Made by a program: the position numbers and the translations under genes
Assembly: GCA_001788955.1 (NCBI GenBank)
Contig: MFXT01000005.1
Location: 1 to 36,410, forward strand
Reading direction: 5' to 3'
Length of the DNA stretch: 36,410 bases
DNA from: Candidatus Peribacteria bacterium RIFCSPHIGHO2_02_FULL_49_16
GTDB lineage: Bacteria > Patescibacteriota > Gracilibacteria > Peribacterales > Peribacteraceae
The notes under the pieces: generated by a model
Databases searched by the model: none
What the model saw: only the letters and a program-made list of their open reading frames with translations
Told to the model about the DNA's origin: nothing
Part shown: piece after piece, positions 11,337-12,016 of the stretch
Position numbering within the stretch: the first letter of the stretch is position 1
How the letters are laid out: each line of letters starts with the position of its first letter

Positions 11337-11370
11337 GAGGGTGGCAAGGGAAAGCCATTTAAAGAACAAA

Positions 11371-11431
11371 AAATTTTTTCATACAACATTCTCTATGAAT
11401 AGACCATTCAAAGATGTTGCATAAAAAATTT
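11371..11431. repeat. Long hairpin downstream of glyA
   Basis: AAATTTTTT (11371-11379) pairs with AAAAAATTT (11423-11431); AT/AT and CAACAT (11384-11389)/ATGTTG (11414-11419) continue the stem with a bulge and one mismatch. It may end the glyA transcript or mark the left limit of the structured region that follows. Confidence 0.6.
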
Positions 11432-11444
11432 ACACGAATATGAT
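11417..11444 (+). promoter_or_regulatory. Promoter-like sequence for the putative structured RNA
   Basis: TTGCAT (11417-11422), 16-nt spacer, TATGAT (11439-11444). The predicted start near 11451 lies just before the first of a series of hairpins. This matches the style of other promoters in the window but is unproven. Confidence 0.45.
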
Positions 11445-11449
11445 GACAT

Positions 11450-12016
11450 GATTTGTTGACCGAAGAGCTGTTAACAAATCGTTGATCCTTAAGGCCTGCG
11501 GCCTTGCGCAAAACAAACACACATATGCTTGACTCTATGAGTCAAGAACCCCGGGGTCCAAACCCGCATGGGCTTGGACCCCACCCCTTTTGCTCCTTAA
11601 TACCATCGAATCAACACAGAGAGAAGACTAGTCATGCGTTCTTCGCACTCGTTCCTCCTGGTCACACTTCGCGTCTCTTCCGCCACTTCTGGGTACAGGA
11701 ACGTGACTGTTAAGTGCTGCGTGACTACCCTTCTCTCTGCTCTGCGATGCTACGTACGATGAATAGCATGAGGATGCACCGTCGTACGCACCACAATACT
11801 TCCCAGTGTTCCCCTTTGCGTATGCGAAGTTCGGTGAACCGGTCCGGGAACCTCGCCTGGTCACGAGGAGAAACAAGCGACCGGAGCACTGCAGAGAGCC
11901 GAGGTATCCTCACCTCAATTTCCTTCATTTTTAACGGCTCAGTAGCCTTTACGTGCTACCGATAGTCGGGAGGAAATAACACAAACACAAAAAGGCCTCT
12001 TCAAAAGGGCCTTTTT
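11450..12016 (+). ncRNA. Putative large structured non-coding RNA, about 560 nt
   Basis: No convincing ORF lies here, yet inverted repeats are nested and dense. Local hairpins: 11450-11480 (11 bp with one G-U), 11491-11505 (AAGGCC/GGCCTT), 11528-11546 (CTTGACTC/GAGTCAAG), 11553-11582 (GGGGTCCAA/TTGGACCCC). A long-range helix joins 11617-11638 to 11718-11739: 10 bp (CAGAGAGAAG/CTTCTCTCTG), a 2x2 internal loop, then 10 bp including TAGTCA/TGACTA and two G-U pairs. Inside it GCACT/AGTGC (11645/11713) and CGTTCCT/AGGAACG (11650/11697) pair. Further stems: CGTACGA/TCGTACG (11753/11782), AATACT/AGTGTT (11795/11805), CTTTGC/GCGAAG (11814/11824), CCGGTC/GACCGG (11839/11879) enclosing CCTCG/CGAGG (11851/11864), GAGCCG/CGGCTC (11896/11935), GTAGC/GCTAC (11942/11955). 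An intrinsic terminator closes it. Hallmarks of RNase P RNA, tmRNA, SRP RNA and group II domain V were looked for and not seen. Confidence 0.6.
11989..12016. terminator. Bidirectional intrinsic terminator
   Basis: AAAAAGGCC (11989-11997) pairs perfectly with GGCCTTTTT (12008-12016) around a 10-nt loop. It gives a T-run on both strands, so it can end the + strand RNA as well as the - strand ATPase gene whose stop is at 12018. Confidence 0.9.

Follow-up and report, generated by a model that had tools for sequence, protein, structure and literature searches.

Between glyA and a convergent gene for a VirD4/TraG-like coupling ATPase lies a stretch of several hundred nucleotides with no convincing protein gene. 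The window, that is, the whole stretch of 36,410 nt that was analysed, is contig C5 of a genome of 917,216 bases. Does this interval hold a gene, and if so, what is its product? A sequence-only reading had proposed a large, highly structured noncoding RNA that could belong with OLE, GOLLD and ROOL or be new.

The RNA gene and its conserved fold

Judged by sequence comparison, positions 11450-12016 of the plus strand, on which all features described here lie, form a stand-alone gene for a noncoding RNA of about 567 nt, equipped with a promoter and a terminator of its own. The RNA begins with a conserved GATTTG and ends with an intrinsic terminator (11989-12016), which is preceded by an A/C-rich linker and was found at the coordinates first proposed. 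The proposed extent was also correct, except that the start was shifted from about 11451 to 11450. The RNAs of relatives are 346-759 nt long, with a median of 557.

The promoter (11417-11444) is composed of a -35 box TTGCAT (11417-11422), a 16-bp spacer and a -10 box TATGAT (11439-11444), and the GATTTG start lies 11 nt past the first base of the -10 box. This promoter had been suggested from the letters alone and is supported by an equal spacing to the GATTTG start across relatives; all of 52 promoters of the RNA share T at -11, A at -10 and T at -6. Further upstream, the distal element AAAAAATTTTTTCATACAACA (11368-11388; family consensus ACAAAATGTATTCANAAAACA) is centred about 72 bp before the start. 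It is strongly conserved: it was scored in 45 of the 52 promoters, in 40 of these at -81 to -83. The element was not seen in rRNA promoters, which were inspected by eye and carry TTGAC, whereas the promoter of the RNA has TTGCN and the distal element. The RNA may hence be regulated separately. A regulon could not be assigned to the distal motif, as its other matches, in the genome and at other loci, were spread about without a clear target among them.

Folding of the locus gave a minimum free energy of -208.9 kcal/mol. The z-score was -7.6 for the plus strand and -4.0 for the minus strand, and none of 100 shuffled sequences was as stable, as would be expected from the proposal of a highly structured RNA. 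In order to follow the fold through evolution, a structure was written by hand and its pairs were counted over 55 sequences. Bases were paired in 91.6% of the cells, and two-sided changes occurred in 22 of the 35 tested pairs. Double-changed cells numbered 185, against 58 in shuffles, and in none of five measures did any of 500 shuffles reach the observed value. When the partner was moved by 1-3 columns, pairing fell to 38-49%. This last control is lenient, because the structure was derived from the same sequences, but the count of double changes is not. Base-pair covariation is decisive support for a conserved RNA fold as predicted from these alignments; its absence had been named in advance as an outcome that would refute a novel RNA.

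The 5' hairpin (11450-11480) opens with the conserved GAUUUG. A long-range helix, P0 (11619-11737), is formed by strands 11619-11636 and 11720-11737. The sequence-only reading had described this helix with 20 bp (11617-11638 with 11718-11739); the helix is real, but it comprises 18 pairs. P0 reached at least 12 pairs in 43 of 53 RNAs, against 23% when the 3' strand was swapped among RNAs. It encloses an optional insert domain, which some RNAs lack and others have in a large form, so that the two strands stand 41-241 nt apart.

The core is closed by helix P1 (11737-11745/11886-11894; strands CUGCUCUGC/GCANGGCAG), with nine positions and five pairs with two-sided changes. Within it follow hairpin P2 (11753-11760/11781-11788; spanning 11753-11788), in which six of seven pairs show two-sided changes, and helices P3 (11800-11804/11846-11850) and P4 (11808-11811/11836-11839), which together occupy 11800-11850. 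P3 is paired in 99.6% of the cells, with two-sided changes in four of its five pairs; the corresponding count for P4 is three of four. An H-type pseudoknot (11851-11882) completes the core: stem S1 (11851-11855/11864-11868) is paired in 95% and stem S2 (11859-11862/11879-11882) in 96% of the cells, both with two-sided changes. Its A-rich loop, AGAAACAAGC at 11869-11878 in the window, is nearly invariant within the family as AGAAACAAG. The outgroups keep the topology of the pseudoknot with different letters; at locus L127 the stems are GAUGA:UCAUC and GGUG:CACC and the loop is UAAAAACAAGA.

Downstream of the core, a small hairpin GAGGU/ACCUC (11901-11916) is visible directly in the alignment. 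It is followed by a 3' hairpin, GGCUCAG...CGAUAGUC (11936-11967; consensus CUCAG...YGAUAG), with a conserved UA bulge, which is retained across the family and in outgroup loci L123-L126, L128, L229 and L230. The letters UGAUAG/CUCAG had suggested a k-turn in this hairpin; the idea was dropped, as UCAG/CUGA pairs and leaves a two-base UA bulge.

Two copies depart from the usual dimensions. The copy at L031:2264-2458 has an additional hairpin between P0 and P1. The copy at L132:1380-1648 has big insertions in P2, in P4 and inside the pseudoknot, with all core helices still present, and represents a natural test of the tolerance of the fold to insertion.

Distribution in Peribacteria and related families

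NCBI places the Peribacteria in the phylum Candidatus Peregrinibacteriota. A blastn search found the RNA sequence in 22 of 40 relatives, all from one family, the window's own. A pattern search of GTDB genomes with 29 positions yielded 53 loci, nearly all in Peribacteria/Peregrinibacteria. A covariance model built from the 164-nt core, R1, matched 71 of the 74 genomes of the Peribacteria family (56 of 57 high-quality genomes; 39 of 40 genera), with 1-3 copies in each. Copies often occupy two fixed loci, and several genomes have two or three. No second copy was found in the window's genome, all 917,216 bases of which were scanned, and no copy was detected in the complete family genome G070. That a streamlined lineage has retained the RNA in nearly all its genomes suggests that it is likely important there.

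Beyond the family, but within the class, R1 had eight matches, all weak. Seven outgroup loci (L123-L128 and L130) were read and showed the same layout; L129 is nearly identical to L128. This layout includes the -10 box, CUCUCUGC or a close variant, and the pseudoknot, joined in most of the loci by the GATTTG/AATTTG start, a boxA-like motif, the 3' hairpin and the terminator. A broader model, R2, trained with seven outgroup sequences, matched 102 of 353 genomes of the class, 31 of them beyond the family and spread across ten other families. E-values of the models come from a shortened calibration, and few of the divergent matches below about 40 bits were inspected. Three new R2 loci were read. 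L229 and L230 are clearly genuine, with core and 3' hairpin present; L231 (genome G608, another class, E = 9e-4) is a false match within a coding region. As the RNA is present across families, its origin must go back at least as far as that of several families in the class.

The boxA leader and the palindromes upstream of it

The leaders of 16S and 23S rRNA are the place where the antitermination element boxA is expected, and each of the 15 Peribacteria 16S leaders searched for it contained one. The 5' half of the RNA contains a conserved motif, GAUCCUUCACACCAC, that matches the leaders of the organism's own 16S gene (GCTCATTCACATCATTGTAGAGTAGAGAAG) and 23S gene (GATCTTTCACAGCATCG). In the window this boxA-like element is GCUCCUUAAUACCAUCG (11592-11608), with a score of 16.8 by the 16S-leader matrix; it agrees in 10 of 11 letters with the published consensus GYTCTTTAANA, taken from a survey that did not consider noncoding RNAs (PMC5725501).

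The matrix was trained only on 13 16S rRNA leaders of these bacteria. At a threshold of at least 9 bits it matched 44 of the 53 RNAs; shuffles gave a mean of 2.6 (maximum 6), and upstream DNA gave 2 of 53. The type of boxA follows lineage in both genes: in outgroup family f34 the 16S leader has TGTTCCTTGAAAACA and the RNA has TGTTCTTTGAAAAC, with the form TGTTCYTTGAAAAC common to both. If a boxA-controlled transcript is one whose boxA resembles that of the organism's own rRNA leaders, the RNA qualifies.

The likeness to rRNA operon leaders extends to the layout, in which a lineage-specific boxA, the signal for NusB-S10, precedes a long helix. After boxA, the RNAs commonly have GUAGAGAG; the 16S leaders have GUAGUAGAGAAG and a leader-trailer helix. 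There are also differences: the RNA precedes no rRNA gene, its long helix closes within the RNA, its -35 box and distal element differ, and palindromes stand before its boxA. A boxA outside rRNA is also found in genes of the suhB type, which differ in being mRNAs regulated by Nus factors (PMC5725501).

The 16S gene (L159, on C6) and the 23S gene (L140, on C2) are on different contigs, each has a promoter-like sequence of its own and a boxA in its leader, and a clear leader-trailer helix is formed by the 16S gene. At the 16S 3' end, most Peribacteria (L197-L215; L199 is the 16S rRNA of the window's genome, G000:C6) do not have the usual anti-Shine-Dalgarno sequence CCUCC and carry GGAUGGAACGUUUCCUUACC or GGAUGGAACACUUCCUUACC instead. 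CCUCC is kept in two family genomes, and outgroup L216/L217 has GGAUCACCUCCUUUCU.

The 5' domain of the RNA is rich in A and C (median A+C 0.67) and contains GC-rich perfect palindromes. Spacer-free palindromes of at least 10 nt occur in 29 of 53 RNAs (0.8 in shuffles, maximum 4 in 200 sets), and palindromes of at least 12 nt in 23 of 53 (0.2 in shuffles, maximum 3). They comprise 18 different sequences with CCGG, GGCC or CGCG at the centre. Among inverted repeats, those with spacer 0 were the most enriched (40 against 10.1, fourfold), and other spacers rose less. Little or no excess was detected in the 3' core or in upstream DNA, and 1 of 15 16S leaders, used as control, had such a palindrome. 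By computation, a dimer was favoured over two hairpins by about 20 kcal/mol.

Selection that keeps these sites self-complementary while leaving their letters free points to the pairing of two molecules. The palindromes suggest homodimerisation of the RNA in many species, a prediction for which there are no dimerisation data. The GC-rich 10-nt palindrome is absent from 24 of the 53 RNAs, and one palindrome, GGCUCCGGAGCC, is common to seven RNAs, so that the 29 cases are not independent. The window has a weak version of the palindromes of its relatives, which measure 10-20 nt: ACCCCGGGGU (11548-11557) is only 10 nt long and its 3' half overlaps a hairpin arm, hence dimerisation may not hold in the window's own species.

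In E. coli rRNA leaders, boxB precedes boxA. The palindromes, too, precede boxA, by 8-43 nt, and can also fold into hairpins; they could thus be boxB-like antitermination hairpins (both elements are named in PMC10250234) or, alternatively, sites for a symmetric protein. This possibility, which competes with the dimer step only, is doubtful to our mind, although it keeps some weight. A hairpin does not need a perfect palindrome without spacer, yet spacer 0 was the spacing enriched fourfold, and the 16S leaders of the same bacteria have such a palindrome in one case out of 15. A protein site would be difficult to reconcile with palindrome sequences that vary among species.

Established by comparison of the homologous loci are the autonomous gene, the boxA leader, the long helix, the 164-nt pseudoknot core and the 3' hairpin with its UA bulge. 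The reading that we prefer, with a probability of roughly 0.6, is that of a new class of large ornate RNA that is synthesised by rRNA-style antitermination, is probably abundant and perhaps dimeric, and has a structural role; expression, binding, dimerisation and role are inferred. NusB and S10 (NusE) at boxA would likely convert RNA polymerase to its rRNA-type antitermination form, for which there are no binding data, and the long untranslated transcript would then likely escape Rho and fold correctly. With less certainty, the palindromes upstream of boxA would pair two RNA molecules into a homodimer or a larger working particle in many species. The weakest step, made by analogy with the apparent behaviour of OLE, ROOL and GOLLD, is that the RNA might be abundant and act in trans as a structural RNA or as the scaffold of an RNP, and would not be a regulator of neighbouring genes.

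A different use of boxA is conceivable. The RNA could be a sponge for Nus factors and a regulator of ribosome synthesis, in which boxA captures NusB-S10 and rRNA antitermination is reduced as a result; the structured core would then protect the RNA or bring in a second ligand. The boxA and the GUAGAGAG that follows it do imitate an rRNA leader, in other bacteria the control exerted by Nus factors is not confined to rRNA (PMC5725501), and a promoter unlike that of rRNA would permit separate regulation. However, boxA lies in the leader and is less conserved than the core, and the pseudoknot core would be superfluous in a sponge. The simpler reading is that the RNA uses boxA as rRNA does, for its own transcription. 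We regard a sponge as unlikely.

Our preferred reading has a bolder form, in which a class-wide Patescibacteria RNA is made like rRNA through boxA antitermination and would assemble into RNA-only homodimers or larger particles through variable self-complementary palindromes. This form is speculative and, on the sequences at hand, more probably wrong than right. If it is true, the pathway that makes rRNA also supplies cells with about 1 Mb of DNA with a dedicated structural RNA machine. We know of no earlier noncoding RNA class, rRNA aside, in which an rRNA antitermination signal is present lineage-wide. boxA suggests a route of synthesis that can be tested directly, and the palindromes offer a simple test of quaternary structure; the RNA is also a potential marker gene and cryo-EM target.

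Known RNA classes, neighbouring genes and coding potential

A scan of the whole window with Rfam 15 at gathering level returned three tRNAs only and no match at the RNA locus. A permissive scan of the locus gave only sub-threshold matches at chance level, mostly at the terminator hairpin, and a scan of 12 homologous loci, outgroups included, likewise named no family. A significant match to a known class would have contradicted the proposal of a novel RNA. A search of the published literature on RNAs of these bacteria returned nothing relevant. With 71 of 74 genomes, covariation, no Rfam family and no conserved frame, the comparisons favour a new class; the novelty is at the level of the RNA class, as the broad idea of large ornate RNAs already exists.

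Membership in OLE, ROOL or GOLLD, the other option first left open, was rejected, as the covariance models of these RNAs were not listed even at E-values up to 10. The likeness is of a general kind. These RNAs, too, are several hundred nucleotides long, with elaborate conserved structure, no protein and a largely unknown role; in GOLLD, as here, the 3' half is conserved and the 5' half varies; and all three form homo-oligomers, partly through symmetric kissing loops (cryo-EM structures in PMC12286853), as the palindromes suggest for the Peribacteria RNA. ROOL and GOLLD are mostly phage-borne, often near tRNAs. Such carriage was discarded for the Peribacteria RNA, which has a fixed chromosomal synteny and no match among IMG/VR viral sequences (exact pattern only). 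We know of no boxA in OLE, ROOL or GOLLD, and of very few bacterial RNAs this large and complex, most of them without a known role.

The sequence-only reading had seen no signature of RNase P RNA, tmRNA or SRP RNA at the locus, and Rfam has no match there. RNase P RNA and tmRNA were found above cut-off elsewhere in the genome (C25:77429-77936 and C7:7607-8013, respectively). Neither the two SRP models of Rfam (small and large) nor its 6S RNA model had a match in the genome, the locus included, and a simple scan of the whole genome for SRP motifs gave nothing convincing. The RNA might thus replace a housekeeping RNA that went undetected, such as SRP RNA or 6S RNA. The absence of SRP RNA is weak evidence, since the same search missed Bacillus subtilis for both SRP models, and may reflect a limit of sensitivity. 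SRP domain IV is a hairpin with a GGAA-type loop and an AGCA/CAGG internal loop, and 6S RNA is a single long bulged hairpin; the core of the Peribacteria RNA has a pseudoknot and no SRP domain IV. With RNase P RNA and tmRNA present elsewhere, a replacement is not supported, although it is not excluded, and we consider it quite improbable.

In the window, the RNA begins 113 bp past glyA (Pfam SHMT), and the end of the ATPase gene lies a short way past the RNA. It could hence be a cis-regulatory element or an untranslated tail of either neighbour. The RNA has its own promoter and terminator, however, and the downstream gene is convergent. In other genomes the neighbours are unrelated, and the upstream one is often divergent. 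Two arrangements recur. In the first, glyA and the RNA face genes for the VirD4-like ATPase and HrcA (HrcA was named by reading the sequences); in the second, genes for SecF and a membrane protein run away from the RNA, which faces genes for a TPR protein and a PfkB kinase (all named by reading). The varied gene contexts have already largely refuted an element or tail acting in cis, which is very improbable. As neighbours vary (glyA/VirD4-like, SecF/TPR and others) while the RNA persists, action in trans is most likely.

Four ORFs overlap the RNA on both strands, with lengths of 67-83 codons, and none has a conserved frame, in agreement with the view that no convincing ORF is present; such a frame in relatives, which would have refuted a novel RNA, was sought and not found. 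Pfam gave no match for the three of these ORFs that were scanned. That the locus encodes a small protein can practically be ruled out: the translations match relatives in several frames, on both strands and with stops included, of the 16 indels that separate the locus from copy L072 of the same genus, 15 would shift a reading frame, and the substitutions track the base pairs.
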